IMG/VR virus record: IMGVR_UViG_3300042945_000451
Coordinates: 1-29,147 of that record
Direction: 5' to 3' (one strand)
DNA length: 29,147 nucleotides
Source: a virus
Below the pieces are notes generated by a model that worked only from the letters and a program-made list of their open reading frames with translations, was not told the origin of the DNA and did no database searches. Positions 1 to 20,801 of the stretch are shown in pieces. Position 1 is the first letter of the stretch, and each line of letters opens with the position of its first letter. A program made the position numbers and the translations under genes.

Positions 1-984
1 AAGTTCTTTGATGATGTATTCTTTCCTTACTGCGACAAGCACGGCATAGACACCGTGTTACATCTAGGTGATCTACTGGATCGTCGCAAGTTTGTTAACT
101 TTCAAACGCTAAATCAAGTGCGAACCCGATTCATGGAACCGCTTTTGCAGCGCGGTATGACCGTGCATTGCATTCTTGGCAATCACGATGTGTATTACAA
201 AAACACCAACCTAGTGAACTCTCCAAAGGAATTGTTTGGAGAACGCTATACCAACTTCATTATTTACGAAGAACCAGTTGAGTTGCAGTTTGGCTCTCTG
301 CGTGTGGCGATGGTTCCGTGGATCAATAAGAATAACCACGAAGACTTCCTGCGCTTCATCAAGAAGAGCAAGTGTCCTGTGATCTGTGGACATTTTGAAC
401 TGGAAGGCTATCAGGTGATGCGTGGCGTAAAGCACGATAGTGGTATGCCTGCCAATCTGCTTGCGCGTTACGAGATGGTTCTGTCGGGACACTTTCACCA
501 CAAGCACGGTGGTGGGAATGTGCAGTATTTGGGTACACAGTATCAGATCACCTTCAGCGACTTGGAAGACCGTAAGGGATTCCATGTACTTGATACAGAA
601 ACCAGGCAACTGGAGTTCATCGAAAATCCCAACAGAATGTTTCATGCTATTCGCTACGATGATTCTCGGCATGACTACAGTAAAGTTCTAGAGAACGCAG
701 ACTTCTCGCGGTACGCAAACACCTTTGTCAAGGTCTTTGTGGACTCGAAGACCAAGCCGTATATGTTTGACAAGTTCTTGGATGGAATCTATACCGCTCC
801 TGCCATGGGCGTCACCGTTGTAGAACAGAATCCTGATACCAGTACAGGTGAACCCGCAGCAGATATGGCACTAGACACGCTTGGTCTAATCAACAAAGAG
901 ATTGATGGTATGGAAGAAGTACACGACAAGCCTATGCTGAAGCGCATTGTGCGCGATTTGTACATGGAGAGTCTGTCTCTATGA
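1..984 (+). CDS. 47: Recombination endonuclease subunit gp47 (SbcD/Mre11-like), 5' truncated
   Basis: Nuclease subunit of the gp46-gp47 complex, which resects double-strand ends for recombination-dependent replication. The reading frame is open from base 1 and the first metallophosphatase motif (D-x-H) is missing, so the gene begins upstream of the window; the GTG at 55 is internal. Counting from the first codon, GDLLDRR lies at about 23-29, GNHD at about 60-63, CGHFE further on and the metal-binding GHFHHK at about 161-166. These are the calcineurin-like phosphoesterase motifs in the normal order. The visible 327 codons plus a short missing N-terminus fit the T4 protein of about 339 residues. 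The last four bases (ATGA, 981-984) overlap the gp46 start, so translation is probably coupled. Confidence 0.95.
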   Translation, partial: KFFDDVFFPYCDKHGIDTVLHLGDLLDRRKFVNFQTLNQVRTRFMEPLLQRGMTVHCILGNHDVYYKNTNLVNSPKELFGERYTNFIIYEEPVELQFGSLRVAMVPWINKNNHEDFLRFIKKSKCPVICGHFELEGYQVMRGVKHDSGMPANLLARYEMVLSGHFHHKHGGGNVQYLGTQYQITFSDLEDRKGFHVLDTETRQLEFIENPNRMFHAIRYDDSRHDYSKVLENADFSRYANTFVKVFVDSKTKPYMFDKFLDGIYTAPAMGVTVVEQNPDTSTGEPAADMALDTLGLINKEIDGMEEVHDKPMLKRIVRDLYMESLSL

Positions 985-2705
985 TTAACTTCACAAGGGT
1001 TCGGTTCAAAAACTTTGGATCGTTTGGGAACAACTTCACCGAAATTCAACTGAACAAGGCCAAGATGGTTCTTGTGTCGGGTAGTAATGGGCACGGTAAG
1101 TCATTTGCTTTGCTTGATTCTATCACCTTTGGGTTGTTCGGGAAGCCATTCAGAAAGATCAATCTTCCTCAGTTGGTGAATAGTGTAAACGAAAAGGATT
1201 GCTTGGTAGAGGTGGAGTTCGGTATTGCTACCGATTCCTACAAGGTAGTTCGAGGCATCAAACCTAATCGCTTTGAAGTGTGGAAGAATGGCAATCTGTT
1301 GGATCAGCACGCCACCACAAAGGACTATCAGAAAATGCTTGAAGAGCAGATTCTGAAGATGAACTACAAGTCATTTACACAGGTGGTTATACTTGGTAGT
1401 TCTTCGTTTGTTCCGTTTATGCAGTTGCCTGCTGCAGATCGCCGGGCGGTGATTGAAGATATTCTTGATATCAATGTGTTCTCAACCATGAACACAATCC
1501 TCAAGGCAAAGATGTCTACCCTCAAGGAAGAGATTGCAGATAATGAACGCAAGATTGAAATTCTGCGCGAGTCTATCCGCGCTCAGAAAGACCTAATCGC
1601 AGGACTGAAAAGCAAGACCGATGAGCAGGTGCAGGGAAATCTGAAAGAGATCGCTCGCTCTGAATCCTTGATTGAAGAAAAGCAAGCAGAACTTTCTGCT
1701 CTAACCGAGCAGATTCAACAGGTGAAAGTCAAACTGCAAGGCAAGGTTACCTTGTTGAAGCAGATCAGCAAGATGGAAATCTTGCAGAAGCAACTGGAAT
1801 CCAATCGTAAAAAGGTTGGAGAAGAGTTGTCATTCTTTGACAACAACGAAGTGTGCCCAACTTGTCAGCAGTCTATCGATAAGGCAAGTCAACCCATTCA
1901 CGGGTTGCTATGTAAGAAGAAGAGCAAGCAAGGTGAATTGAACGAAGCAGTTGATGCCATTGTCACCGAGATTGAAACCAAGCGAAATCAAATCGAAGAG
2001 TATGAAGAGGTGTCCAATGAACTGGAATCTCTGAACACGCAGACGATGGAGGCTAATAGCACCATCACGGCGTGCAACTCTTATATCGGCAAACTCAGTA
2101 AAGAGAACAAGGCGATTCAAAGCAAAGAAACAGAAGACACCGATCATCAGAAACGATTGATTGATTTTCAGGGAGACTTGAACAAGAACGAGGCCTCCAA
2201 GCACAGCCTAGTTGAAGAGATGCACTACTACAGCGTAGCGGCAACTCTTCTGAAAGATAGTGGTATCAAGGCAAAGATCATTCGCTACTATCTGCCAATC
2301 ATCAACAAAACCATCAACAAGTATTTGAATACGATGGATTTCTTTGCAAACTTCACACTTGACGAAGAGTTCAACGAAACTATCAAGAGTCGGCACCGCG
2401 ACGCCTTCTCTTACATGAGTTTCAGCGAGGGAGAAAAGATGCGTATCGATTTGGCCTTGCTACTGGCGTGGCGAGAGATTGCACGAATCAAGAACAGCGC
2501 AAACACCAATCTGCTCATCTTGGATGAGGTATTTGATTCGTCGCTTGACACCGCAGGAACTGAAGAGTTTATGAAGATTCTGCATTCCTTTGGTAACACA
2601 TCAAATGTGTTTGTGATTTCTCACAAAGCAGATCAGTTGGTAGACAAATTTGAACACACCATGTCGTTTGAGAAGAAGAACAATTTCAGCAGGATTACAC
2701 CATGA
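981..2705 (+). CDS. 46: Recombination endonuclease subunit gp46 (SbcC/Rad50-like ATPase)
   Basis: ATPase and DNA-tethering subunit partnering gp47. The 574 residues carry a Walker A GSNGHGKS (34-41), two long coiled-coil arms (about 175-290 and 315-390) separated by a zinc hook CPTC (292-295), the ABC signature SFSEGEK (480-486), Walker B LLILDE (511-516) and the switch histidine in VISHK (H548). All elements of a Rad50/SbcC protein are present, and the length is close to T4 gp46 (about 560). The start overlaps the gp47 stop in ATGA and the end overlaps the next start by four bases. The placement directly after gp47 is the canonical T4 order. Confidence 0.96.
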   Translation: MINFTRVRFKNFGSFGNNFTEIQLNKAKMVLVSGSNGHGKSFALLDSITFGLFGKPFRKINLPQLVNSVNEKDCLVEVEFGIATDSYKVVRGIKPNRFEVWKNGNLLDQHATTKDYQKMLEEQILKMNYKSFTQVVILGSSSFVPFMQLPAADRRAVIEDILDINVFSTMNTILKAKMSTLKEEIADNERKIEILRESIRAQKDLIAGLKSKTDEQVQGNLKEIARSESLIEEKQAELSALTEQIQQVKVKLQGKVTLLKQISKMEILQKQLESNRKKVGEELSFFDNNEVCPTCQQSIDKASQPIHGLLCKKKSKQGELNEAVDAIVTEIETKRNQIEEYEEVSNELESLNTQTMEANSTITACNSYIGKLSKENKAIQSKETEDTDHQKRLIDFQGDLNKNEASKHSLVEEMHYYSVAATLLKDSGIKAKIIRYYLPIINKTINKYLNTMDFFANFTLDEEFNETIKSRHRDAFSYMSFSEGEKMRIDLALLLAWREIARIKNSANTNLLILDEVFDSSLDTAGTEEFMKILHSFGNTSNVFVISHKADQLVDKFEHTMSFEKKNNFSRITP

Positions 2706-3367
2706 CAAACTTTCAAGAGAACTCGTATGTGTTGGGAGATGCCTTTGATTATCTACCTAACATTGCCTCTGAATCGGTAGACCTAGTATTCACTTCCTGC
2801 CCAGACCTATCTCAGACTCCATTTGGAAAAGATGAGACTGACTCATATCGCCAGTTTCAACAGAAGGCAATGCGAGAGTTTGCTCGTATTGTGAAACCAA
2901 CGGGGTTTGTTGTGGTGTGTCAAACTGACCGCAGAGTAAATGGATTCATTCTGTCGAATCATATGTGGTATGCACAATGTCTAGAGAACGAAGGCCTAAG
3001 TCTCAAGGATTACAAGGTTGTCGTTCGGAATGAAGTAGGTAAGCGTGACATGTACTACTTCACTTTTCAACACATGCTTGTGTATACAAGCCACGGAGTG
3101 ATTCATCGCAAGGGAGACTGGTTGCGCGACATCTATGTGGATCAGCAAGAGAAGGTGCTGAATCAATCGGTGTGGTCACAAGACTTCTGTAAGTATGTGA
3201 TTGAGAACCTTACCAAGCCAGGAGATTTGGTTGTTGATCCATTCGCAGGAGTTGCCCCTGTTTTGCTTGCTGCCAGTACTACTGGACGCAGATGGTGGGG
3301 ATGCGAACTGGAAGAGAAGTTCTACGATCCAAAATTCAATCATTCCAAGGCTACTCTTCCGCTATGA
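2702..3367 (+). CDS. Compact beta-order DNA methyltransferase-like protein with altered motif IV
   Basis: A 221-residue class I SAM methyltransferase relative of the amino-DNA methyltransferase type. Motif IV comes first (DLVF then TSCPD at 31-35), followed by the SAM-binding motif I DPFAGVAP (179-186) and a WWGCELEE tail, which is the beta-class order. Active N6-adenine or N4-cytosine enzymes carry (D/N/S)PP(Y/F/W) at motif IV; here the first proline is cysteine and the aromatic residue is aspartate. The protein may therefore be inactive, use another target, or do different chemistry. There is little room for a target recognition domain. It overlaps gp46 by four bases (2702-2705) and the PLP enzyme by ATGA (3364-3367), so the three are co-translated. 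The fold is fairly sure, the substrate unknown. Confidence 0.75.
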   Translation: MTNFQENSYVLGDAFDYLPNIASESVDLVFTSCPDLSQTPFGKDETDSYRQFQQKAMREFARIVKPTGFVVVCQTDRRVNGFILSNHMWYAQCLENEGLSLKDYKVVVRNEVGKRDMYYFTFQHMLVYTSHGVIHRKGDWLRDIYVDQQEKVLNQSVWSQDFCKYVIENLTKPGDLVVDPFAGVAPVLLAASTTGRRWWGCELEEKFYDPKFNHSKATLPL

Positions 3368-4248
3368 AAGAATTTCCTAGCCATGTTCTGACTAGAACCC
3401 CGGTGCAGTTTATTGAAGGCGTGTGGTATAAGCGGGATGATATGTACACCCCCTATGGGGTTGGAGATGTGAGTGGAGGGAAGGTAAGACAAGCCATTCG
3501 TTTGCTGTATCCTTTGCGGGATATTTTGAAGGAACGCACAAGCGGAGTAGTGACTCATACACAGGTGCATTCCACTACAGGAGCCATTGTTGCTAGAGTA
3601 TGCAAGGATCTAGAGATTCCTTGTGTCATTTGTATCGGTGGTAGTTCGCCAGAAACCATTGACAATCATCACATGATGCGATACGCAAAGTGGCTGGGTG
3701 CAGATGTTCGCAATGTTTGCGGAACAGGAATGCACGGTCCTGTACTTGCTAGAATGCGTGAGATTGCCAAAGCAGAAAACCTATACGATGGAGTCTTTAC
3801 TCACAATATAGAAAATAGAGAAGATGCAATCATCGATAGCATTGAGCATCAGGTGGCTAATCTACCGAATCAGTTGGATCAGTTGGTGGTGCCCGTGGGA
3901 AGTGGAGTACACTTTGCTGCCATCCTCAGAGGCATTCACCGGTACAGTCTAAGTGTGGGTAAGGTAATTGGATTGTGTGTTGGTCCAAAGCGAACAGAAA
4001 ACATCAACAAATGGGTGAATCCCATGGCAGGATATCCTCTGCCAGACTACGAGTTACATTGCCTAAATACTGTATACGGAAAACCTCTTGTGGAAAAGAT
4101 TGCAGATGGTACAATCCTTGACGATCTGTACGAAGCAAAGGCACACAAGTGGATGCGAGAAAATCTCGACACAAACAAGAGTACTTGCTTTTGGGTGGTT
4201 GGGCGTAGACTAAGCGAAACTGAAGTACAGAAAAGAATGGAATCATAA
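3364..4248 (+). CDS. PLP-dependent enzyme, fold type II (ACC deaminase / tryptophan synthase beta-like)
   Basis: A 294-residue protein of the tryptophan-synthase-beta superfamily. Near the N-terminus WYKRDD is followed by GDVSGGKVRQA, where K40 fits the Schiff-base lysine of ACC deaminase and D-cysteine desulfhydrase relatives (canonical GGNK-R). The loop HTQVHSTTGA follows the lysine, and VPVGSGVHFAAILRG matches the glycine-rich phosphate-binding loop. The start at 3364 is chosen over an in-frame ATG at 3292 because it overlaps the preceding stop in ATGA. The end shares one base with the next start (TAATG). The substrate cannot be read from the sequence. The position between two methyltransferase relatives suggests work on an amino-acid-like group, possibly SAM-derived; that is inference. 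Confidence 0.8.
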   Translation: MKEFPSHVLTRTPVQFIEGVWYKRDDMYTPYGVGDVSGGKVRQAIRLLYPLRDILKERTSGVVTHTQVHSTTGAIVARVCKDLEIPCVICIGGSSPETIDNHHMMRYAKWLGADVRNVCGTGMHGPVLARMREIAKAENLYDGVFTHNIENREDAIIDSIEHQVANLPNQLDQLVVPVGSGVHFAAILRGIHRYSLSVGKVIGLCVGPKRTENINKWVNPMAGYPLPDYELHCLNTVYGKPLVEKIADGTILDDLYEAKAHKWMRENLDTNKSTCFWVVGRRLSETEVQKRMES

Positions 4249-5879
4249 TGGAAACTCTACAAGCACATAAAACCTTCTTTGAGAAGAACACTCACCTTCT
4301 GAACCATCCAGTAAATGTTACCTTCGATGAACTACTGGAGATGGATGCAGATGACTTCCGCAAATGGGTCATCGACATGCGTAAGGCTGTTGTTGATATT
4401 TGGGACAACATGGGATGCCCTCCTCGCATTGGAAAGGTCGAAGAGGATATCATTGAAGAGTGGAACAAGATGGCTGAGTATCCTGTGAAGTCTTTTGAAT
4501 TTGACGATGAACTGGAAAACATTGGCAAAGATGTAATCTTAAACAAGGCTAGACTTGGTTCCGAAGTAGATCAATGGTTTCCCACCATGATGAAGACTCG
4601 TATCAACTACAGCGAGAAAGACGATGGGTACTCCATTTATGAACTGTTTGCTGAAGATCGATTTCTTGATCGCATGGTGAAGGGATCAATGCGTCACTTC
4701 CGTAGAGACTCGCTGTATATGCATGCCTTGTCTTGCTTGCGTAATAATGCTAAGCCTGCTCTTGTGTCTGTACCTGATGCTTTGTCGTGGATCAAAGCAT
4801 TTCAAACCAACAAGGAAATCTTCAAGGGATACGACTTCATGCTTGAACAGGTGAAGGTTCGTGAAGGCAACAACACGGGATATTTCCAACTTAATCAGTC
4901 AGACATTCTGAATCTAACACGAGAACAAGTGCAACAACTCAAAGATGAAGGAGTGCTGCAATACAGGCACTTCTCTACCTTTGATGTGAACTCTATGCCG
5001 GATGATCGGGTGTATACCATCCGTATTTACAAGAAGGGTGAGAGGGTATTCCCAAAGGGATTCGCCGCTTTCCGTATTGGATACATTCAGGTTGCCCACA
5101 ACTTTCCTCCAATGACTGCCAAGTATTTGTACGAGCGATTTACCGAACATGTCAAGGGGCAGAAAGATCCTATTGTGATCTACGATCCATCATCAGGATG
5201 GGGTGGTCGCATTCTAGGCGCCATGAGTGTGCGCGATGATCGTAAAATCCATTACATTGGAACTGATCCAAACCCTGAACTTTATTACATTGACACCGAT
5301 ACAGGGGAAGAGCGGCCTCGCTATGCTGATGTTGCAGATTTCTATAACACCAAGACATATAGAGGCAATCCTTTCTTCAGCGAAACCAACACATATGAAA
5401 TCTACAGACTAGGTTCCGAAGAGATTGGCAACAATCCTCGATTTAAGAAGTACCGGGGAAAGATTGATATGATCTTTACTAGTCCTCCGTATTTTAACCG
5501 AGAAGCCTACTCAAAGGACGAGAATCAATCGTACAAGAAGTATGGTTCATCTTACGAAAGTTGGAGAGATGGCTTCTTGCGTCCCACGCTAAAGACCTGT
5601 GCAGAGTTCTTAAAGCCTGATCGATACTTGCTATGGAACATTGCAGACATTCAGGTTGGTGGAGATTATCTGCCTCTTGAAGAAGATTCAAAAAGATTCC
5701 TTGAGGAGTTTGGATTAGTGTATAAATACAAAGTGAAAATGGCGATGGAATCTATGCCTGGGCAGAATCGTCTTGACGAAGAGACAGGATTGCCCAAGTG
5801 TAAGAACTATTGTAAGGTCGGTGGAGACTACATGAAGTATGAACCTGTTTATGTTTTTTATAAGCCAAAAGGAGAATGA
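4248..5879 (+). CDS. DNA methyltransferase-like protein with SPPY motif and large N-terminal region
   Basis: A 543-residue protein. The C-terminal half is a SAM-dependent amino-methyltransferase: a motif-X-like segment FPPMTAKYLYERF (about 286-298), motif I YDPSSGWGGR (312-321), an acidic residue in IGTDPNP, and catalytic motif IV IFTSPPYF (409-416). Motif I before IV is the alpha/gamma order, opposite to the gene at 2702. SPPY suggests N4-cytosine or N6-adenine methylation, but the family with SSGWGGR has no specificity I can name. The N-terminal 280 residues are mostly helical and acidic and match nothing I recognise. They could be a target-recognition or partner-binding part. The start overlaps the PLP enzyme stop by one base; the stop overlaps an ATG at 5876 that I do not prefer as the next start. 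Confidence 0.82.
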   Translation: METLQAHKTFFEKNTHLLNHPVNVTFDELLEMDADDFRKWVIDMRKAVVDIWDNMGCPPRIGKVEEDIIEEWNKMAEYPVKSFEFDDELENIGKDVILNKARLGSEVDQWFPTMMKTRINYSEKDDGYSIYELFAEDRFLDRMVKGSMRHFRRDSLYMHALSCLRNNAKPALVSVPDALSWIKAFQTNKEIFKGYDFMLEQVKVREGNNTGYFQLNQSDILNLTREQVQQLKDEGVLQYRHFSTFDVNSMPDDRVYTIRIYKKGERVFPKGFAAFRIGYIQVAHNFPPMTAKYLYERFTEHVKGQKDPIVIYDPSSGWGGRILGAMSVRDDRKIHYIGTDPNPELYYIDTDTGEERPRYADVADFYNTKTYRGNPFFSETNTYEIYRLGSEEIGNNPRFKKYRGKIDMIFTSPPYFNREAYSKDENQSYKKYGSSYESWRDGFLRPTLKTCAEFLKPDRYLLWNIADIQVGGDYLPLEEDSKRFLEEFGLVYKYKVKMAMESMPGQNRLDEETGLPKCKNYCKVGGDYMKYEPVYVFYKPKGE

Positions 5880-5881
5880 TA

Positions 5882-7099
5882 ATGGCAAAGAATGAATCAA
5901 AGTCTGTAAATAGTGCGCTATCTGATGTTACTTCTGTGAAATCAAAAAAGTCTAGTGAAGTTTCTGATTCCCGAACAGTCGAGTGGACATATATTTGGCT
6001 GAGTGGTGACGGGAGCATTCGTAGTGCCGTATTTAATTCTGTAGGCAAGACACCAAAGGTACAGCGGTTTGATGGATCTGCTTGCAAGCAAGCGTCCACG
6101 GATAATTCAGATCTGTTTCTAGTTCCTGTCAGAGTTGTATCAGATGTGTTGTTTGGAAACGACAGCATATCTCCTACTAGTTCTATTGTACTCTGTGAAG
6201 TACAAACTGCAGATGGAACTCCCCACGCTTCTAACAGCAGAGCAGATCTGAAAAAGTTCTTACTCAAGAACTCTAAACTCTCTACTGTAAAGATTGGAAT
6301 GGATCAGGACATTCTTTTTATAGACCCGGATACTAGACAGCCATATTCTTGGCCACTAGGAAAGAATGAAAAGGGAGAAGAGCAAGTTGTTTTCCCTGGT
6401 CCTCAAGGACGATACTACGGAGGTACTGGTGACTTTGTTCGTGGTAGAAGAATTATGAGTTCGATTGTAGATCGAATGAACTACAGAGGAATCAATATCA
6501 GATCTTACAATCCTGCAATTTGTCTATCACAATGGACTTATAGTGTTCAAGAAAACGATATTATGACTGCGTGTGATGATCTTATCATTTCTCGATACCT
6601 CTGCGAGTCTGTTGCTGAAGAAGAGACATCTCCGAGGTGTGTTGTGAGTTACACTCCAAAAAGTTTTCCGGGAACTGAATGGAACGGTAGTGGTTGTATT
6701 TTCCGGTTGTACTTGGAAAATTACACAAGCAGCGGTGGAAATGCTAGTCTTGCCAAATCTATTTGTGAAACCTTAGGGCAAGATCACCGTGAGCATATTG
6801 CAGCATATGGATCCGGCAACGAAGCACGCCTAGTGGGGAAGACAGGGGGTATTAGTGACTACAACAAATTCAGTTGGGGATTTGGAGACAAAACTGCTTC
6901 CATCTGCGTACCAACAATACCTCTGATGGGCGACTCCACCGATCATGTTTATTTTGAAGATCGTAGACCAAGTGCCGGAGTCGATCCGTATGTTGGAGTT
7001 CTTGCACTATGCCGTAGTCTTGTGGGCGTTCTAGACCTGCAAGTGCCTACAAAGGCAGAAGTATCTGCTAAAGAGTTTGAACCAAAACTTGTAAGTTGA
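5882..7099 (+). CDS. Glutamine synthetase type II-like protein with degenerate active site
   Basis: A 405-residue homologue of eukaryotic-type glutamine synthetase (GlnII). The beta-grasp domain is at about 35-125 (YIWLSGDGSIRS, RFDGSACKQASTDNSD, LCEV). The catalytic domain carries GMDQD (139-143), FPGPQGRYYGG (171-181), WNGSGC (267-272), EHIAAYGSGNEARL (304-317) and YFEDRRPSAGVDPY (357-370). The scaffold is clear, but against human GLUL (recalled from memory) metal and catalytic residues differ: E134/E136 become D141/D143, E196 becomes A212, E203 becomes T219, H253 becomes I273, and the E305 and R319 equivalents also appear lost. Normal ATP- and metal-dependent amide formation is therefore doubtful. 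ATG 5882 is chosen over 5876 because AAGGAG ends seven bases upstream. A serine/lysine-rich 30-residue N-terminal tail is extra. It follows the methyltransferase by 2 bases. Confidence 0.88.
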   Translation: MAKNESKSVNSALSDVTSVKSKKSSEVSDSRTVEWTYIWLSGDGSIRSAVFNSVGKTPKVQRFDGSACKQASTDNSDLFLVPVRVVSDVLFGNDSISPTSSIVLCEVQTADGTPHASNSRADLKKFLLKNSKLSTVKIGMDQDILFIDPDTRQPYSWPLGKNEKGEEQVVFPGPQGRYYGGTGDFVRGRRIMSSIVDRMNYRGINIRSYNPAICLSQWTYSVQENDIMTACDDLIISRYLCESVAEEETSPRCVVSYTPKSFPGTEWNGSGCIFRLYLENYTSSGGNASLAKSICETLGQDHREHIAAYGSGNEARLVGKTGGISDYNKFSWGFGDKTASICVPTIPLMGDSTDHVYFEDRRPSAGVDPYVGVLALCRSLVGVLDLQVPTKAEVSAKEFEPKLVS

Positions 7100-7100
7100 G

Positions 7101-7128
7101 TTGACTTGTATCGGGTTCGTCTTATACT
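7101..7128 (+). promoter_or_regulatory. Sigma70-like promoter TTGACT-N16-TATACT
   Basis: The -35 box TTGACT (7101-7106) and -10 box TATACT (7123-7128) are separated by 16 bases, in the only gap after the accessory block. Transcription would begin around 7134-7136, at or just before the ATG at 7137. The message would be nearly leaderless, although AAGG at 7129-7132 could serve read-through transcripts from upstream. Exactly the same two hexamers and spacing recur at 21800-21827, which raises confidence that this is a real phage or host-sigma promoter. Confidence 0.7.
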
Positions 7129-12805: not shown

Positions 12806-13480
12806 ATGAAAATCGACCTTCGTAATGTACAAACTAGATGGATTAATCTAGACCGAGCGACCCTTAACGCCAAGCAGATGACCGATCAATTTGATCGCTT
12901 GGGATTCACATCTCATATGCGAATCCCTGGCAGGATCATTCCTCCTCCCAAGTCTATGTCTCCCGCAAAACTCAAGGCATTCGGTACACATTTCATGGGA
13001 TGCGGACAAGCGCACATTGACGCCTTGTTATCAATCAACAAGGCGCCTGTTCTTGTGTTAGAAGATGATGCGCTTGCAACTGAAGCATTTGTTCCGAGCA
13101 TAGAAGTGCCAGACGATACTGATGCCGTGTATCTTGGGATTTCTCATGGAAATCAAAAGCAAGCAATCGTTGACTTGAACAATGGATGGTATAGAATCTT
13201 TGGTATGCTTGCAGCACACGCAGTACTCTATGTGTCCGATAGATACAAGAATTACGCAGCAGATATAGCGCACATGTGTCTATATTCTAAGCAGATTCCT
13301 ATGGACAATGGCTTTGCAGCAGCACAGTCTAAGTTCAAAGTAATTGCTGCTCCAGTTCCAATGTTCATCCAGTCCGCTCTGAGACAAAGCGAAAACAAGT
13401 GGCAAACTCTTACTGATCGTCCACTTGTTCCGACTCATGTACAAGCATTGAATGAGTTGATTCCTATTCCCTCTAAGTAA
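12806..13480 (+). CDS. Glycosyltransferase, family 25-like
   Basis: A 224-residue protein with the features of GT25 (LPS-type glycosyltransferase): an N-terminal RWINLDRATLNA strand and helix, GCGQAHIDALLSI (family pattern G-C-x-x-S-H), the acidic VLVLEDDAL (about 82-90) that would hold metal and nucleotide sugar, and a middle domain with GMLAAHAVLYVSD. Donor and acceptor are unknown. The Shine-Dalgarno is weak. It is the first gene of the cargo island, 11 bases after regA. Confidence 0.65.
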   Translation: MKIDLRNVQTRWINLDRATLNAKQMTDQFDRLGFTSHMRIPGRIIPPPKSMSPAKLKAFGTHFMGCGQAHIDALLSINKAPVLVLEDDALATEAFVPSIEVPDDTDAVYLGISHGNQKQAIVDLNNGWYRIFGMLAAHAVLYVSDRYKNYAADIAHMCLYSKQIPMDNGFAAAQSKFKVIAAPVPMFIQSALRQSENKWQTLTDRPLVPTHVQALNELIPIPSK

Positions 13481-13490
13481 TGGAGACATG

Positions 13491-14003
13491 ATGCAGTTTG
13501 GCTTTTATCAATTATACGCGAATGCCCCGCTTCCCACTTATGCAACCGAGCATTCTGCTTGCTTTGATTTGACGGCACATCTTGTAGATGATACTGGGCA
13601 TCTCAGAACGATTAAATCTGTCGATCCGCAGAACACTATGAGCGATATGCTCAGAGTCAGTTCTGATCTGACCATTCCCCCGCAAACTACTGTACTGATT
13701 CCAACTGGACTAATTGCGAAAATCCCTGTTGGATATTCTGTTCGTGTGCATATGCGATCCGGTGTTGCGTTAAAGCGCGGACTGATCTTACCGAATGGAG
13801 AAGGAATAATTGATGCAGACTACTTTGATGAGTTGTTCCTGATGGTCAGGAACGCATCAAGCGCCTTTGTTACAGTTAAACATGGCGAAAGAATTTGTCA
13901 GGGTGATCTAGTAAACACGATTCGATTACCTATTGAACAGATACATACTAGACCCAACCAAACCACAGATCGTTCAGGTGGGTTTGGATCAACAGGAGTG
14001 TAA
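13491..14003 (+). CDS. dut: dUTPase (trimeric family)
   Basis: Hydrolyses dUTP to dUMP, keeping uracil out of DNA and feeding dTMP synthesis. The five motifs appear in order in 170 residues: SACFDLTA (1), MRSGVALKRG (2), NGEGIIDADYFDELFLMVRN (3, with catalytic Asp), HGERICQGDLV (4) and the flexible glycine-rich DRSGGFGSTG (5). The start at 13491 is preferred over the adjacent ATG at 13488 because TGGAG (13481-13485) then has a five-base spacing. An extra stretch of about 25 residues lies between motifs 1 and 2, longer than in the bacterial enzyme. Confidence 0.92.
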   Translation: MQFGFYQLYANAPLPTYATEHSACFDLTAHLVDDTGHLRTIKSVDPQNTMSDMLRVSSDLTIPPQTTVLIPTGLIAKIPVGYSVRVHMRSGVALKRGLILPNGEGIIDADYFDELFLMVRNASSAFVTVKHGERICQGDLVNTIRLPIEQIHTRPNQTTDRSGGFGSTGV

Positions 14004-14009
14004 TACATT

Positions 14010-14336
14010 ATGACCCGTGATGAACTTTTGGCATGGCACAAATCAATCTGCGACTCTGGCCGCACACTTATGGATGCGAAGAACAGAGACTACGCAGGCA
14101 ATGACGGACTAGAACCGTTCGCAAATTTCACAAGAGTAGAATCAATGGGCATCTGCTCCACCGAGCAGGGGTTCTTGGTTCGTCTTACCGATAAGATGAG
14201 TAGACTTAGTTCGTTTGTAGAGTCTGGCAAACTTCATGTTTCCGATGAGAGTTTTATGGATACTTGTGTTGATGTAATCAACTACATGGTACTGTTGAGT
14301 GCTTACTTGAAAGAGAAAGAGAGATCAAAACAATGA
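14010..14336 (+). CDS. DUF1599 / MazG-like all-alpha NTP pyrophosphatase-type protein
   Basis: A 108-residue all-helical protein. KNRDYAGNDGLEPFANFTRVE, FLVRLTDKMSRLSSFVESGK and ESFMDTCVDVINYMVLLSAYL match the pattern I know from DUF1599 (nucleotide-modification-associated domain 1), related to MazG and phosphoribosyl-ATP pyrophosphohydrolases. The acidic residues in D-x-x-x-D-x-x-N-Y are typical of the metal site in that fold. Between the dUTPase and a glycosyltransferase it could hydrolyse an unwanted or modified dNTP. The stop overlaps the next start in ATGA. Confidence 0.65.
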   Translation: MTRDELLAWHKSICDSGRTLMDAKNRDYAGNDGLEPFANFTRVESMGICSTEQGFLVRLTDKMSRLSSFVESGKLHVSDESFMDTCVDVINYMVLLSAYLKEKERSKQ

Positions 14337-15673
14337 CAAAGAAAATGGAAAACGATAACCGTATTTTTATTCAGATTGCAGCGTATCGGGATCCTGAACT
14401 GGTTCCAACCATCAAGGATTGCTTAGACAAGGCCAAGCATCCTGAACGCCTGCGGTTTGGAATTTGTTGGCAACATGAACCAACGGATCCTTGGGACGCA
14501 GAACTAGCAGAGTTCAAAAACGATCCCCGGTTTAAGATCATTGATGTGCCATGGAATCAAAGTAAGGGAGCATGTTGGGCCCGTAATTCTATTCAAGAAC
14601 AACTGTATGATGGCGAAGAATACACTCTTCAACTGGATTCTCATCACCGATTTGCACAAGATTGGGACGAGACTCTGATTGGGTGGATTAAAGAGTTACA
14701 AGCAAAGGGTCATCGCAAACCTTTGCTAACTTCATATGTTACTCCGTTTAACCCGGAGCAACACAGAGGAAGACAACACGATGATATGTTGGAGAAGAAT
14801 CATGCCCTGTACTTGGAATTTGATAGATTTACTCCAGAGGGGTGCGTGTTCTTTAAACCACATTACATTGATGGTACAACCTTTTGGGCGGGTAATGGTA
14901 AAAAGTTTGCTGAATTAACCTCTCCCATTCCGTGTAGATTCTTTTCTGCACATTTTGCTTTTACCCTTGGTGATATGGTGAGAGAAGTTCCACATGATCC
15001 AAATTACTACTTTCACGGTGAAGAAATTTCGCTGGCGATGAGATGCTATACACACGGATATGATCTGTTTACGCCACATCGTAATGTGATATGGCACGAA
15101 TACACCCGAGAGTACAGAACCCACAAGCATTGGGTAGATCATGTAGACGAAAACAAAGAAAAACTTGTTGATGGTCTAAACTGGGTAGACAGAAACAACA
15201 TCTGTCACCACAGAAATCGTGTACTGTTTGAAATGGATTACGATCCAAATATCGTATTTGGCAAATATGGTAAGGGTAAAGAAAGAACTCTTCAGCAATA
15301 CGAAGAGTACGCACAACTCGACTTTAAGAAAAGATGCGAGATTTTGCCTGACAACAAGGTTCGTCATGCATCTCTACTGCGGTGGGATGAGAAACAATTT
15401 CATCAAGCAACTGATTTAGATTTTGTAGTGTGTGCTGTTCACAACGAACAGAATGATACTCTGTGGAGAGAAGACTTCAATCCTACTACTAAACCTTTTA
15501 TGTGGGATAGAAGTATAACCCCAACGGATTCTCTCCGAGAAGGGTACACTAAATTTGCCATATCATTTACATGCGATAAAGAAGCATCTCCATCTAAATT
15601 CATACTATGGCCTTATAGTAAGTCTAAGGGGTGGTTAAACAAAGTAGAGATTCCACTTTCATTTGGTTACTAA
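14333..15673 (+). CDS. GlcNAc-transferase-type glycosyltransferase with C-terminal extension
   Basis: A 446-residue protein. Residues about 10-290 match the GNT1/Skp1-type GlcNAc transferase family: IFIQIAAYRDPELVPTIKDCL, LRFGICWQHEP, ARNSIQEQLYDGEEYTLQLDSHHRF (DSHHRF as the metal/donor site in place of DxD), the FFSAHFAF acceptor region and YYFHGEEISLAMRCYTHGYD followed by HEYTRE. About 110 C-terminal residues after 330 (LDFVVCAVHNEQND, WPYSKSKGWLNKVEI) look beta-rich and are not part of that family, possibly a carbohydrate- or protein-binding module. Start overlaps the DUF1599 stop by ATGA. Target unknown. Confidence 0.75.
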   Translation: MTKKMENDNRIFIQIAAYRDPELVPTIKDCLDKAKHPERLRFGICWQHEPTDPWDAELAEFKNDPRFKIIDVPWNQSKGACWARNSIQEQLYDGEEYTLQLDSHHRFAQDWDETLIGWIKELQAKGHRKPLLTSYVTPFNPEQHRGRQHDDMLEKNHALYLEFDRFTPEGCVFFKPHYIDGTTFWAGNGKKFAELTSPIPCRFFSAHFAFTLGDMVREVPHDPNYYFHGEEISLAMRCYTHGYDLFTPHRNVIWHEYTREYRTHKHWVDHVDENKEKLVDGLNWVDRNNICHHRNRVLFEMDYDPNIVFGKYGKGKERTLQQYEEYAQLDFKKRCEILPDNKVRHASLLRWDEKQFHQATDLDFVVCAVHNEQNDTLWREDFNPTTKPFMWDRSITPTDSLREGYTKFAISFTCDKEASPSKFILWPYSKSKGWLNKVEIPLSFGY

Positions 15674-15683
15674 GTAATCTCAC

Positions 15684-17318
15684 ATGAGTACACTTACTAT
15701 AGTAAGCGGATTGATTAATATTGGGCGTGGAGAGATGGGAACATCTTTCTCCCGCTCATTTGATCACTACAAAGAAACATTCGGGAAGTTACTGAAATCG
15801 GTTACTTGCCCGATGTTTCTTTACATTAGTCCTGATCTAGAAGAGTTTGTGTGGCAGCATAGAGACAGAAGCAACACTACTCTGAAGTTTGTTACTGCAG
15901 ATGATCTACGAACGAAGATGCCGTTCTACAAACAGATTCAGGATATCCGTACCAATCCTGCCTGGTATAACCAAAAGGGATGGTTGTCGGAAAGTACTCA
16001 AGCAAGATTGGATCTGTACAATCCATTGGTGATGTCCAAGATGTTTTGGTTGAATGACGCAACGCTTTTCAACCCATACAACACCAAGTATTTTCTGTGG
16101 ATTGATGGAGGTATAGTCAACACAGTACATGACAGTCTACTTGGTGCTAAGTTTGAAAGTGAAGTAGTAAAGTACATGGACGGTGCTGCTTTGTTTCTGT
16201 GTTTCCCGTACAAAGCGGACGGGGAAATACATGGGTTTGATGCACTTGCCATGAATGATTTCGCCAGAGGAACAGTTGTTAGTAGGGTTGCTAGGGGTGG
16301 GTTGTTTGGAGGCACCAAAGATAGTATCAACAAGTTGAATGGCCTGTACTATTCTTACTTGACTGATAGTCTTGGTAGAGGACTGATGGGTACAGAGGAA
16401 AGCATTTTTACTCTGCTAACATACAATCACCCAGATCTGTGCAGATATGAGATGATTGAAGAGAATGGACTCATAGCGCCTTGGATCGATAGTATTCTCA
16501 AGAAACCAAAAGAGAGTAGAACCGACAGTAAACTTGGTATATACTCTGTGTGCTTTAACATTCCTGCACAGTACAGGCTTTGGTTGGATTCCACGCGCAA
16601 CCACGACTCTACTTTCAGACACGCTTCCAAGTATGTAATCAACAATTCTACAGATATGTCAACCGATGACGAGTTCTCTGCACTTTACAAAAAGCATTCG
16701 TTTCGGGAGATAAGAAAGCCAGAGAATCTAGGAATATGTGGTGCTAGACAACTTGCTGCAGAAATGTTTGAAGAATCTGATCATCAGTATATGGTCTTCT
16801 TTGAAGATGATATGATGCTTTGTGGCAAGGAAGAAGAGCCGTGTAGGAACGGAATGATACGATACGATTCTAGATTGTTTCATAAGTGTATGAGCATCAT
16901 GGAAAAGGAATCTCTTGACTATCTGAAATTGTGTTTTACAGAATTCTTTGGAGACAACCATCTTAATTGGTCTTGGCACAATCTTCCATCTGACAAGAAA
17001 GAGCAGTACTTTCCAGGCCCACAGATCGCAGGAGTTTGTAATAAAACCAAGATAACTCATACTGGTTCTGTAGATGGATTGTCGTATGCCGTTGGGGACT
17101 TTCACTATTGTAATTGGCCTGTAATGTTCAACAAAGAAGGCAATCGCAAGGTGTTTCTAGATACCAAATGGGCATACCCATATGAGCAAACATGGATGAG
17201 TCATGTACATCAACTGATATCTGAAGGAAAGATCCGAGCAGGTTGTCTACTAAGCAGTCCTATCAACCATAATAGAGCATTTCACTATGATGGTAAGCAG
17301 AGGAAAGAAAACTTATAA
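15684..17318 (+). CDS. Two-domain glycosyltransferase (HtrL/YibB-like plus GT2-like)
   Basis: A 544-residue protein. The N-terminal half (1 to about 275) resembles the HtrL/YibB-type family: LTIVSGLINIGRGE, YFLWIDGGIV as a D-x-like acidic site, GGLFGGTKDSI and a late GTEESIFTLL. The C-terminal half (about 290-544) begins with SVCFNIPAQYRLWLDS and contains LGICGARQLAAEMFEESDHQYMVFFEDDMM, a GT-A style EDD metal site, then FGDNHLNWSWHN and TWMSHVHQL. Two catalytic-looking domains in one chain suggest sequential sugar additions. The GLFGGT signature is shared with the gene at 20798. The ribosome site is weak. Confidence 0.7.
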   Translation: MSTLTIVSGLINIGRGEMGTSFSRSFDHYKETFGKLLKSVTCPMFLYISPDLEEFVWQHRDRSNTTLKFVTADDLRTKMPFYKQIQDIRTNPAWYNQKGWLSESTQARLDLYNPLVMSKMFWLNDATLFNPYNTKYFLWIDGGIVNTVHDSLLGAKFESEVVKYMDGAALFLCFPYKADGEIHGFDALAMNDFARGTVVSRVARGGLFGGTKDSINKLNGLYYSYLTDSLGRGLMGTEESIFTLLTYNHPDLCRYEMIEENGLIAPWIDSILKKPKESRTDSKLGIYSVCFNIPAQYRLWLDSTRNHDSTFRHASKYVINNSTDMSTDDEFSALYKKHSFREIRKPENLGICGARQLAAEMFEESDHQYMVFFEDDMMLCGKEEEPCRNGMIRYDSRLFHKCMSIMEKESLDYLKLCFTEFFGDNHLNWSWHNLPSDKKEQYFPGPQIAGVCNKTKITHTGSVDGLSYAVGDFHYCNWPVMFNKEGNRKVFLDTKWAYPYEQTWMSHVHQLISEGKIRAGCLLSSPINHNRAFHYDGKQRKENL

Positions 17319-17330
17319 GAAAGGATAGCA

Positions 17331-17975
17331 ATGAACATTGACAAATACACTATTGTAGGACCTAATCTAAACGAAAACCAAGGATTGATGACTATAAACG
17401 GTCTTGCTGCACAGCAAAATCAATATGCTCCCTTGGCATTTGCAAATTTGTTAGAGTCTGTTAGACCAAAGCGAATTCTAGAAATAGGAACCGCTTTGGG
17501 AGGCCTAACAGAATTCTTCAGACAGATATCTCAAGAAATAGACCTTCCTCTTGATATAGTTACATATGACATTACCCGACATTCATGGTTTGATGATTTG
17601 CAGGCTAAAGGAGTTGCAGATTATAGAACCAAGTCTATATGGGAGAATGGTGTATTAGAAAGCGGTATATGCCAAGAGTCTATTGATTTCATCAAGCAAG
17701 AAGGAACGACTGTTGTGTTGTGTGATGGTGGTAGTAAGAAACATGAGTTTAATAGTGCTGCAAAACATTTGAAGCCTGGAGATATCATACTTGCGCATGA
17801 TTATGCTCCCAACATAGATGTGTTTGATACACAGATAAATGGCAAGTTGTGGAACTGGTGTGAGATTACTGATGATGATATTTCCGAAACCTGTATCGCA
17901 CAAAATCTTGTTTCTTTCATGCATGAAGAGTTTTCAAATGCTGTGTGGGTTTGTAAGAGAAAAGGAGGCGGTTGA
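17331..17975 (+). CDS. Class I SAM methyltransferase (CmcI / Methyltransf_24-like)
   Basis: A 214-residue methyltransferase. RILEIGTALGGLTEFF (about 48-63) is motif I; VTYDIT gives the acidic motif II; TTVVLCDGGSKKHEFNSAAKHLKPGDIILAHDY (positions about 125-157) matches cephalosporin-hydroxylase/CmcI-type and sugar O-methyltransferase-like proteins. AAAGGA (17321-17327) is upstream of the ATG at a suitable distance. The final stop shares one base with the next start. In a glycosyltransferase cluster it probably methylates a sugar or a small nucleophile; this is inferred from context. Confidence 0.72.
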   Translation: MNIDKYTIVGPNLNENQGLMTINGLAAQQNQYAPLAFANLLESVRPKRILEIGTALGGLTEFFRQISQEIDLPLDIVTYDITRHSWFDDLQAKGVADYRTKSIWENGVLESGICQESIDFIKQEGTTVVLCDGGSKKHEFNSAAKHLKPGDIILAHDYAPNIDVFDTQINGKLWNWCEITDDDISETCIAQNLVSFMHEEFSNAVWVCKRKGGG

Positions 17976-18256
17976 TGACTGCACTAACATACACATACTG
18001 CACAGTAGCCATAGGTAAAACGTATCTCTCGTCCGCTTTGTTGTTCCATGATAAGGTTTCTAAGTATTCCAATCACAAGTGTTCTGTGATAACTACGGAT
18101 GAATCTTCACTAGAAGGCATAGACTTAGATAAGATCAGTCCGAAGATACATTTTGACATCATTGAGCCGGATTACAGGTTGTTCAATATGCCAGATGGAT
18201 ATTACACAGATCAGTTTAACTACAATGTTAAACATCGACCAATCTTCGTGTATTGA
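17975..18256 (+). CDS. Glycosyltransferase-like fragment, N-terminal part
   Basis: A 93-residue reading frame starting at ATG 17975, with AAAGGAGG (17961-17968) six bases ahead (the TTG at 17972 is not needed). It reads TYCTVAIGKTYLSSALLF, SVITTDESSL and FNYNVKHRPIF, the Rossmann-like N-terminal half of a GT-A-type transferase. It stops just where such proteins continue into their D-x-D segment. The next ORF, in the -1 frame, resumes with what looks like the C-terminal half. The DxD segment is missing from both, so this is most likely a gene broken by deletion and frameshift, though the excellent ribosome site means a peptide is probably made. Confidence 0.6.
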   Translation: MTALTYTYCTVAIGKTYLSSALLFHDKVSKYSNHKCSVITTDESSLEGIDLDKISPKIHFDIIEPDYRLFNMPDGYYTDQFNYNVKHRPIFVY

Positions 18257-18651
18257 ATCTGATGAAGACGGAGAACATAGACTTTCTCTTTGAAAGACCG
18301 CATGGTATTGGTGCGGGAAAACAACCAGAAGCATCGTATTGGTGTTTTTGGAGGCATAAGATACCGGCCTATGGGTTAATGGAAACAGACAGATATGATG
18401 CTGGTGATGTTTGCAATGAACAGTATATGATTTTTGCGAATAACGATAAGTTGTCTGTGTTCTGTGCAAACTGGATGGAACTTTTCAATAAAAGTCAAGC
18501 AGAGAACATATGGGCATTTGCAGAGGGGGTTGAGATAGGAATGTCTACTGTGGTTGCAGGTATGAAAACTTCTCTAATACCCCTCAGAATTATGAACGAC
18601 TATTACAAGTTTACACCCGCGTCACGGCCGGAAGGACTACTGAGGTTTTGA
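18253..18651 (+). CDS. Glycosyltransferase-like fragment, C-terminal part
   Basis: A 132-residue frame opening with TTG at 18253 (overlapping the previous stop) or ATG at 18262; neither has a Shine-Dalgarno. It contains NIDFLFERPHGIGAGKQPEASYW, FWRHKIPAYGLMETDRYDAG, VCNEQYMIFANN and IWAFAEGVEIGMSTVVAGM, a pattern I associate with the second half of phage GT-A-type glycosyltransferases. About 25-35 residues including the donor-binding acidic motif seem to be absent at the junction. It is either the dead 3' half of a pseudogene or a separately translated, coupled subunit. Confidence 0.55.
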   Translation: MNLMKTENIDFLFERPHGIGAGKQPEASYWCFWRHKIPAYGLMETDRYDAGDVCNEQYMIFANNDKLSVFCANWMELFNKSQAENIWAFAEGVEIGMSTVVAGMKTSLIPLRIMNDYYKFTPASRPEGLLRF

Positions 18652-19415
18652 TGAACATGAGTTTACTTATCACTACAGTTTTGTTCGATTATCCATCCAC
18701 CTATGAACCTAGTTTTTGCAAAACTGGTATTGAGAGGGGACTATATCAAACGGATATCCATGTTCAACGCTACAATAGTGATGGGGTTTCTCCACCATGC
18801 TCATGGTCAAATAATGTCTACGAGTCTCTTATGTCTAAACTTCGATGGTATAAGATACACAAGCATCTAGAGTACCTGACTGAAATCCAATCGAAATACG
18901 AGTACACTTTGTTTTTAGATGCAACCGACACTAACTTTACCAAGAATGTAGATGGGATGCTTGATGAGTATTTGAAATACGGACACGACATTGTGATGTG
19001 TGCAGAAAAGGGGTTGTGGCCGCCTACACCATACAATCATCTGTATGAAACTATAGGAGCCTCTACTTCATACAAATACTTGAATTCGGGATGCATGATA
19101 GGAAAAACAACTGCAATCATCTCTGCATTGCAGTATGCGGTTGATTCTGATGATCCTAATGTCTCCTTCGCTGGGGACGATCAGGGTATTTGGGCAACTC
19201 TGTATTTGCTTAAGAAAGCAGACATAGTGCTTGATGAGGATCAGAGACTATTCTTCAGCACCCATCTATCTAAAGACAAGACTGTTTTAGATCACCTTGG
19301 AAATCCAATTGGTATAGATGCCTCCGCGTATGTCATACACGACAATGGTCCATGGGGAGAAGAAACAATCAAACTTACAGAAGCCTGCAACATTAGGCAG
19401 TTGGAGACACGATGA
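18651..19415 (+). CDS. PLOD-type glycosyltransferase
   Basis: A 254-residue protein resembling the glycosyltransferase domain of procollagen-lysine glucosyltransferase-like (PLOD) proteins. YTLFLDATDTNFTKN (about 85-99) holds the D-x-x-D donor/metal motif, DIVMCAEKGLWPP follows, YLNSGCMIGKTTAI is the conserved N-S-G-x-x-x-G, and FAGDDQGIWATLYL carries the DDQ motif. ATG 18651 is chosen over the TTG at 18648 because GAGG (18642-18645) is five bases upstream. The end overlaps a 20-codon ORF by ATGA. Confidence 0.75.
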   Translation: MNMSLLITTVLFDYPSTYEPSFCKTGIERGLYQTDIHVQRYNSDGVSPPCSWSNNVYESLMSKLRWYKIHKHLEYLTEIQSKYEYTLFLDATDTNFTKNVDGMLDEYLKYGHDIVMCAEKGLWPPTPYNHLYETIGASTSYKYLNSGCMIGKTTAIISALQYAVDSDDPNVSFAGDDQGIWATLYLLKKADIVLDEDQRLFFSTHLSKDKTVLDHLGNPIGIDASAYVIHDNGPWGEETIKLTEACNIRQLETR

Positions 19416-19474
19416 GAACTATTAGAATCACTAGGCAGTGGTCTGCGAGACTCGCAAAGGAGAGAAACACATGA
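19412..19474 (+). CDS. 20-codon coupling ORF between glycosyltransferase and methyltransferase
   Basis: ATG 19412 overlaps the preceding stop in ATGA, has GGAG (19403-19406) five bases upstream, and its own TGA (19472-19474) overlaps the next gene's ATG (19471) in a second ATGA. The peptide is basic (starts MRTIRITRQW, ends AKERNT). The arrangement looks like a translational relay across an otherwise 55-base gap. It could be a real micro-protein, a leader, or the remnant of a deleted gene. Confidence 0.4.
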   Translation: MRTIRITRQWSARLAKERNT

Positions 19475-20106
19475 TACACAACTTTAAGTATGGCAATGGA
19501 TATGTAAGCGAGGTCTATGAATATCTTTCACAGTCAAAACACAAAAGAGTCATAGACATTGGTGCATCGGGGTATGGGTGGTCATCTCCCTTCATAACGC
19601 ACTATGCTGATATAAATCAGCATCCGAATAGCAATCTAATTTCATTTTTGGGAAACATTTGTTCCTATGAACTATGGAGCAAGATATTAGATGATGTGGA
19701 TAAAAATGGGAAATATGATTTCGCAATATGTACTCATACATTAGAGGACATTTGTAATCCAGGCTTAGTGTGTGAATTGTTACCCAAGATTGCTAATGGG
19801 GGCTATATTGCGGTTCCATCAAAATTCAAAGAGATGACTAGGCATGAAGGATCGTATTTTGGGTGGATTCACCATCGTTGGATCTTTAACAAAGAGGGAA
19901 ATAGATTCGTTGCATATCCGAAACTTCCTTTTGTAGAATACACAGACATTGCAAGTCGTATTTTTCAGGGACGAGATATTGAACAAACTTCTGATTTGAG
20001 TTTTTTTTGGTCGGATTCGTTTGAAATGGAGATAGCAAACGACGATTACATGGGCCCCGGTACTGCGGCGGTGATGGGCTACTTTAACCGTCTAGTAGAA
20101 GATTGA
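19471..20106 (+). CDS. Class I SAM-dependent methyltransferase
   Basis: A 211-residue protein. The start at 19471 has AAAGGAG (19456-19462) eight bases upstream, better than the in-frame GTG at 19438. RVIDIGASGYGWSSPF (about 26-41) is motif I; YADINQH is the acidic site; YDFAICTHTLEDICNPGLV (about 83-101) matches the D-x-x-x-x-x-H-x-L-E/H motif of Methyltransf_11-type enzymes, with PSKFKE after it. The C-terminal part has WIHHRWIF and is unassigned. Substrate unknown; context suggests a glycan or precursor. Confidence 0.68.
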   Translation: MIHNFKYGNGYVSEVYEYLSQSKHKRVIDIGASGYGWSSPFITHYADINQHPNSNLISFLGNICSYELWSKILDDVDKNGKYDFAICTHTLEDICNPGLVCELLPKIANGGYIAVPSKFKEMTRHEGSYFGWIHHRWIFNKEGNRFVAYPKLPFVEYTDIASRIFQGRDIEQTSDLSFFWSDSFEMEIANDDYMGPGTAAVMGYFNRLVED

Positions 20107-20140
20107 TATCAGCATGACTCGCCTCTTCTGATTTCTGTAG

Positions 20141-20146
20141 TATACT
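20141..20146 (+). promoter_or_regulatory. Possible -10 box TATACT before the FkbM gene
   Basis: The 71-base gap 20107-20177 contains TATACT preceded by TGTAG, close to the other boxes in this window, but the -35 region is poor (ATGACT at 20114-20119 is 21 bases away). A start near 20153 would give a leader of about 25 bases containing two abortive ATG codons at 20165 and 20171 that end at TAA 20174-20176. Confidence 0.35.
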
Positions 20147-20177
20147 TACTGGAGCCGCTAGTAAATGAGAATGTAAA

Positions 20178-20801
20178 ATGAACCACAGTTATATTGATCT
20201 CTACAACATCAAAAGTGTTCTTGACATAGGAGCAAATGTAGGACAGTTTGCCCTCGAAGTTTTAACGCAGCATCCCAACATATACATCCTATGCATAGAA
20301 GCAAATAGAGAATGTGAATTTTCATTGCAGAATGTTGGATTGAATTACATCATTGCTTGTCCATCTGATAAAAAAGATACACGCAAGTTTTACAAAAGGA
20401 CAAATGAACCGAGATGTAGTGGAAACTCGTTGTATCTTGAAAACACTCATTATTTTTCAGAAGATAATGTGACTGTAGAACTGGTTGATACTGATACTAT
20501 GGACGCTATTCTTACAGCACATCGCGCAGATACAGTTGCATTTGATATGATAAAACTCGATACTCAAGGAAGTGAACTAGATATTTTAAAGGGATGTAAT
20601 GCTGTACTGAAAAGCGCAAAACTTGTTCTAGTTGAAACTGATGTCAATCAATACAACATTGGATGTCCTACACAAAAAGATGTTGTTGAGTATTTGAACT
20701 CTGTTGGTTTTGTACAGATTGATGTTGTTGAAAAGCATTACCACGATTGTAAACTATCTCAAGAAGATATCCTATTCGGAAAGAGAGATATACTTATATG
20801 A
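20178..20801 (+). CDS. FkbM family methyltransferase
   Basis: A 207-residue protein with the FkbM layout. SVLDIGANVGQFALEVL (about 13-29) is the SAM-binding motif, YILCIEANRECEFSL the acidic motif II, FDMIKLDTQGSELDILKG (about 132-149) the hallmark I-K-x-D-x-x-G-x-E-x-x-x-L-x-G, and LVLVETDVNQYN follows. FkbM enzymes O-methylate sugars or natural products. It is shorter than many members because it lacks an N-terminal extension. The end overlaps the next start in ATGA (20798-20801). Confidence 0.85.
   Translation: MNHSYIDLYNIKSVLDIGANVGQFALEVLTQHPNIYILCIEANRECEFSLQNVGLNYIIACPSDKKDTRKFYKRTNEPRCSGNSLYLENTHYFSEDNVTVELVDTDTMDAILTAHRADTVAFDMIKLDTQGSELDILKGCNAVLKSAKLVLVETDVNQYNIGCPTQKDVVEYLNSVGFVQIDVVEKHYHDCKLSQEDILFGKRDILI

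Follow-up and report, generated by a model that had tools for sequence, protein, structure and literature searches.

Lengsin (LGSN), a vertebrate lens protein of the glutamine synthetase (GS) superfamily, has no GS activity and belongs to the class I GS lineage. A literature search for inactive GS proteins yielded mainly work on lengsin. In terms of GS as a binding partner, GlnR is reported to bind feedback-inhibited GS (PMC9249791), and heliorhodopsin is reported to bind and regulate GS (PMC9529153). Concerning viruses, a phrase search of the literature gave no description of a phage or viral glutamine synthetase, although other wording may have been used. Canonical class II GS (GSII) genes are nevertheless common in viral contigs, with at least 582 confirmed relatives in IMG/VR, which suggests that phage GSII genes are numerous and have attracted little notice. 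The loci L028-L107 and L118-L182, which carry such canonical genes, include contigs of several hundred kb.

Here we analysed a 29,147-nucleotide stretch of viral DNA (IMG/VR record IMGVR_UViG_3300042945_000451, positions 1 to 29,147; hereafter the window). The source is a T4-superfamily phage; its DNA polymerase shares about 50% identity with cyanophage polymerases. The window carries a GSII homolog which we designate pGS (pseudo-glutamine synthetase). Likened by description, pGS resembles lengsin in having a GS fold apparently without GS catalysis, whereas lengsin is an animal protein of class I. The GSIIs of huge phages and other viruses (LR756501, LR756502, LR745206 and hundreds of IMG/VR contigs) are homologous to pGS and likewise phage-borne; in contrast to pGS, their catalytic signature is complete in each non-redundant sequence examined, and in the three cases examined the gene neighbourhoods differ from that of pGS.

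The initial annotation had placed the gene at 5,882-7,099 with 405 residues. The ORF is indeed full-length and intact, but 5,882 is its second ATG and the frame opens at 5,876 (Table 1). The GSII fold signatures recognized in that annotation were borne out by several approaches. A phmmer search matched pGS to the plant GSII 4is4 (E=1.3e-48) and to fifteen other GSIIs, the weakest at E=6.6e-31. The NCBIfam GlnII model matched at E=1.8e-48 with 165 bits, below its equivalog cut-off of 500 bits; two GSs of sister phages, described below, scored 297 and 281 bits and thus also fell under this cut-off. The gamma-glutamylputrescine synthetase model, whose cut-off is 650 bits, scored pGS at 32 bits. 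PHROG 21628 was the sole PHROG family to match, and the match was partial (E=2.8e-11, residues 61-255). Structure prediction, proposed in the initial annotation as a check, gave an AlphaFold2 model from 40 sequences with a pLDDT of 85.6 and a pTM of 0.85. All of the best 50 PDB structure matches listed for this model were GSIIs, with target-normalised TM-scores of up to 0.87, while BFVD held no full-length viral model comparable to pGS. The fold of pGS is thus predicted to be intact.

Table 1. Positions of pGS, its altered and retained residues, and neighbouring genes. Coordinates are those of the window unless a contig is named.
Feature	Coordinates	Strand	Remarks
SbcC/gp46-like gene	981..2705	+	upstream, in the same coupled run
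MTase221, N4/N6-type DNA methyltransferase-like, 221 aa	2702..3367	+	Pfam N6_N4_Mtase 2.8e-16
PALP, fold-type-II PLP enzyme family	3364..4248	+	Pfam PALP 8.7e-12; TIGR01275 2.7e-07
C1, 543 aa	4248..5879	+	N-terminal part plus N4/N6 methyltransferase region with TSPPY
pGS (pseudo-glutamine synthetase, GSII fold)	5876..7099	+	intact ORF, 407 aa; 405 aa from second ATG at 5882
D141 to D143 codons	6302..6310	+	metal ligands E129 and E131 of maize, here both Asp (D141, D143)
A212 codon	6515..6517	+	maize E192, metal ligand
T219 codon	6536..6538	+	maize E199, metal ligand
Codons 273-277	6698..6712	+	I273 (H249, metal ligand), R275 (N251), Y277 (S253); R275 and Y277 clade-invariant
G323 codon	6848..6850	+	maize E297, Glu flap
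Codons 337-342	6890..6907	+	K337 (maize R311), C342 (maize R316, substrate/ATP arginine)
E359-D-R-R codons	6956..6967	+	retained motif (maize E330, R332, R333)
Promoter-like site	7101..7128	+	10/12, consensus match only; within 37-bp gap after pGS
phrog_11903 gene, 368 aa	7137..8243	+	in the pGS lineage; missing here in L143 and L233
Sister GS, L143	L143:5983-7074		363-365 aa (both sister GSs); same operon position as pGS
Sister GS, L233	L233:9628-10725		see preceding row

The active site was then examined, with residues numbered as in maize GS1a through the phmmer alignment and their roles taken from Medicago GSII, in which E129, E131, E192, E199, H249 and E330 are the metal ligands (PMC3975887). 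Five of these six are changed in the window protein (E129D, E131D, E192A, E199T and H249I), and E330 is kept. Further losses are E297G in the Glu flap, N251R and S253Y in the ATP site, and both substrate arginines, R311 being replaced by Lys and R316 by Cys. D56, R291, Y328, R332 and R333 are retained. Compared with the GSII enzymes from maize (GS1a, 2D3A), Medicago (4IS4) and Streptomyces (4BAX), pGS therefore has in common the fold, the GPQGxYY, FDGS and EDRRP motifs and residues R291, E330, R332 and R333, but is without the metal ligands, with E330 excepted, the Glu flap and the ATP-site residues. The maize alignment confirmed the seven replacements already listed in the initial annotation (E129D, E131D, E192A, E199T, H249I, E297G and R311K), and added N251R, S253Y and R316C, all of which proved to be clade-wide losses.

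Homologs of pGS were found at 11 IMG/VR loci with 59-100% identity using the protein as query, and at one more locus (57%) using an alignment as query. After a wide gap, the next viral sequences among the matches listed were canonical GSIIs with approximately 31-37% identity. The pGS clade is monophyletic (support 100/100) and sits on a long stem branch of 1.7-3.6 changes per site. Positions 192, 199, 249, 251, 253, 297 and 316 are altered in all ten distinct clade members, the window included, whereas plant GSII and some 70 viral GSIIs from outside the clade have all seven unchanged. For a comparison independent of the phmmer mapping, we aligned a non-redundant set of 83 sequences, nine of them from the pGS clade, with MAFFT. 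In this set, the signature was complete in all viral GSIIs outside the clade, except for position 125 and a single Y328H. The losses within the clade are graded: E129 is present in eight of the nine clade rows and R311 in seven, so that E129D and R311K are mostly confined to the window copy; E131 remains in two relatives (L010 and L023), and the window has neither E129 nor E131. R316 is absent from every clade row. The replacing residues vary at positions 192 (A/G/S), 249 (I/N/V/C/T) and 297 (G/Q/N), while N251R, S253Y, R316C and E199S/T are fixed in the clade, all within the former ATP/glutamate cleft. R291, N244-G245, R332 and R333 are retained in every row, as is the N-terminal FDGS loop in pGS, although D56 is Asn in one relative. 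The possibility that the metal ligands are merely shifted, which had been raised in the initial annotation, was ruled out, since the residues fell into identical columns when pGS was aligned with the roughly 70 canonical viral GSIIs. A sequencing or assembly artefact was ruled out as well, as the same losses occur in contigs from different samples.

Selection on the gene among related phages, another check proposed in the initial annotation, was estimated by pairwise dN/dS (NG86). The median for pGS was 0.142 in the 23 pairs with dS<2, indicating purifying selection, yet this value was the highest of the ten genes compared, the nine neighbouring genes giving 0.029-0.119. Of the 94 positions conserved at 95% or more in canonical viral GSIIs, pGS keeps 59. 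The retained fraction was 8/20 in cavity-lining segments and 51/74 elsewhere (Fisher p=0.035); the active-site segments are thus less conserved than the remainder of the protein, but only moderately so.

pGS therefore combines clade-wide catalytic loss, beside catalytically complete homologs, with purifying selection, as is characteristic of pseudoenzymes. Its sequence supports the view that pGS is a GSII-derived pseudoenzyme, and the protein very probably does not carry out ATP-dependent glutamine synthesis from glutamate and ammonia. The earlier proposal that selection has preserved the scaffold while catalysis was lost is consistent with the residue losses, the dN/dS and the predicted fold, and loss of catalytic residues from a scaffold under selection suggests a role other than ordinary glutamine synthesis.

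We also examined the gene neighbourhood. All pGS contigs covering the region have the order SbcD(gp47)-SbcC(gp46)-MTase221-PALP-C1-pGS-phrog_11903-RNaseH-...-gp45-gp44-gp62-regA, with one extra ORF in L003. The coupled operon gp47-gp46-MTase221-PALP-C1-GS ends with pGS. In the window, gp46 and MTase221 overlap by 4 bp, PALP and C1 by 1 bp, and C1 and pGS by 4 bp. The ORF of PALP opens mechanically at 3,292; the ATGA-coupled start at 3,364 agrees with the starts in relatives and gives a 4-bp overlap with MTase221. PALP retains the PLP-lysine motif GGKVRQA. Motif IV of MTase221 is TSCPD rather than TSPPY, and is invariant across both phage lineages described here even though the proteins are only 70% identical, which suggests an altered or partner methyltransferase; the L143 counterpart of MTase221 lies at L143:2312-2983. 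Profile searches of the PDB returned only DNA methyltransferases for MTase221 and no matches for PALP and C1, and the predicted structure of C1 (pLDDT 40.7) was too poor to use. PADLOC gave matches to little more than methyltransferase models, and Rfam had no match anywhere in the window. No second, complete GS was present in five pGS-phage contigs of 44-60 kb, which are incomplete genomes.

Several features of these neighbours were noted in passing. Distant homologs of PALP occur in 343 phage records, some of them from Ackermannviridae, and in mycobacteriophage Vincenzo the gene lies beside a ParB-like gene. Homologs of the phrog_11903 protein are encoded by phages that infect Sinorhizobium, Caulobacter, Stenotrophomonas and other hosts. 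Its gene in Synechococcus phage BUCT-ZZ01 is near those for queE, 6-carboxytetrahydropterin synthase and GTP cyclohydrolase. In L004 (6308-7941), C1 is split into two overlapping ORFs, perhaps by an assembly frameshift, and is intact in the close relative L011. Further downstream in the window, positions 12,806-21,775 hold consecutive genes resembling those for glycosyltransferases, HtrL/YibB, FkbM methyltransferases and PLOD, a series that differs among relatives, and 14,010-14,336 gave a weak match to DUF1599 (nucleotide modification).

A second lineage of phages carries the same operon with a complete GS. One contig, L143 (IMGVR_UViG_3300035204_000619), emerged from a wider GS search, and more were found with MTase221 and C1 as protein queries; L143 and L233 (IMGVR_UViG_3300025103_000229) are the two that cover the GS position. 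Their operon proteins are 70% (MTase221), 51-52% (PALP) and 64-66% (C1) identical to those of the window, in the same order. Every canonical catalytic residue is present in both sister GSs, as judged from the alignment for L143 and read from the sequence for L233, and the two enzymes are thus apparently active. They share with pGS an insertion before FPxPQGRYYxGTGxFxRG, but differ from it in their complete catalytic residues and in having no phrog_11903 gene behind the GS gene. In the tree, pGS and the two sister GSs fall on one side of a branch separating them from 31 other GSIIs, including those of plants (support 98/86.8). Taking into account that these nearest relatives are complete and occupy the same operon, a phage GSII has apparently lost catalysis in situ and been kept as a pseudoenzyme. 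The simplest history would be that a complete phage GSII was in the operon first and that catalytic loss came later, along the stem branch of just one of the lineages. Replacement of the gene is possible, but the operon position and the tree favour descent in place. As a separate observation, L143 alone encodes a 145-aa SET-domain protein (3918-4355; Pfam 3.3e-10) between PALP and C1.

Pseudoenzymes are common; it is rare, however, for sister phages to hold a still-complete homolog in the corresponding place of the operon. The pair offers an unusual before-and-after view of an enzyme becoming a non-enzyme, and makes a non-catalytic role of the fold directly testable against one genetic background. 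A further implication is that T4-superfamily phages have an undescribed module of four genes, consisting of MTase221, the PLP enzyme, the C1 methyltransferase and GS.

What could pGS do in such a module? Most likely, though with chances only about even, it is a non-catalytic partner that serves the enzymes of the operon as a scaffold or allosteric unit; MTase221, PALP and C1 are retained in all pGS contigs covering the region. In the ancestor, a catalytically complete phage GSII would have been the last gene of the operon, and may have captured ammonia or supplied glutamine for the same module. As a speculation, a PLP enzyme related to amino-acid deaminases/desulfhydrases (TIGR01275) would fit beside an ammonia-fixing GS. 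On the stem of one lineage, the metal site, Glu flap and ATP-site residues would then have been lost, with the fold, gene order and purifying selection staying in place. The product might be an oligomeric, GSII-shaped scaffold or small-molecule sensor, with R291, N244-G245, R332/R333 and the loop of D56 retained, which would attach to the PLP enzyme and/or the methyltransferase pair and position or tune them. Action through bound partners has precedents among GS proteins in the cases of GlnR and heliorhodopsin. A shared operon position is not proof of a shared pathway, and the fixed R275, Y277 and C342 could equally represent a new active site. More broadly, and only tentatively, GSII may have been rebuilt as a hub or new enzyme which, together with the PLP enzyme and a methyltransferase pair with one TSCPD member, forms an undescribed module for the modification of DNA or nucleotides, which sister phages hold in an active-looking and a pseudo-GS form. 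Thymidine hypermodification is a possible purpose of the module, considering that PLP homologs occur in Ackermannviridae; on the other hand, a search of ten contigs gave no thymidylate-synthase-family gene, ThyX is present, and no decisive modification gene was seen.

That the cleft has been rebuilt for a reaction needing neither two metals nor GS-style ATP, perhaps acting on the product of PALP, is in itself unlikely. The replacements fixed in the cleft (N251R, S253Y, R316C and E199S/T), the retained R291, E330, R332 and R333, and the constant company of a PLP enzyme that is apparently intact and of an unimpaired methyltransferase motif would all suit a new enzyme, but positions 192, 249 and 297 vary within the clade and the dN/dS of pGS, 0.14 against 0.03-0.12, exceeds that of its neighbours. 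To our knowledge, no GS-fold enzyme works without the metal site. The initial annotation had also considered a repurposed carboxylate-amine ligase; this seems unlikely, because the known GS-fold ligases depend on the metal and ATP sites that are gone in pGS. A regulator or a ligand-binding protein, also named there, may apply.

We regard as improbable a sensor role in which pGS would bind, but not turn over, glutamate, glutamine or a nucleotide and would pass a signal to proteins of the host or phage that lie outside the operon. R291 and N244-G245 are contacts for the amino-acid substrate in GSII, and their conservation in every row along with R332/R333 is what such a sensor would need; further substrate contacts (E131, E192, H249, E297 and R316) have been lost, however, and no receptor or effector is known. 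The decoy suggested in the initial annotation, a subunit that enters the GSII decamers of the host and reduces or alters their glutamine synthetase activity, fares worse and is very improbable. The N-terminal FDGS loop of GSII completes the active site of the neighbouring subunit, and pGS keeps both this loop and the fold. Against this, the GSIIs closest to it are those that phages hold in the same place of the operon, its identity to other viral GSIIs is only about 33-37%, and it lies in a DNA-metabolism operon coupled to methyltransferase and PLP-enzyme genes; a decoy would moreover presuppose a GSII in the host. Lastly, that pGS is a decaying, functionless relic is scarcely credible in spite of its long stem branch and its faster evolution than its neighbours, as the ORF is open in every contig covering it despite protein differences of up to 43%, dN/dS is far below 1, the tight gene coupling is preserved, and simple neutral decay does not account for five residues at metal position 249 next to ATP-site positions 251 and 253 fixed to Arg and Tyr.

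Among bacterial genomes there was a single match, from Marinibactrum halimedae (L026:7974-9140), which is not close to pGS. This 388-aa GSII-like protein carries replacements at many of the catalytic residues, and apparently represents an independently degenerate GSII.
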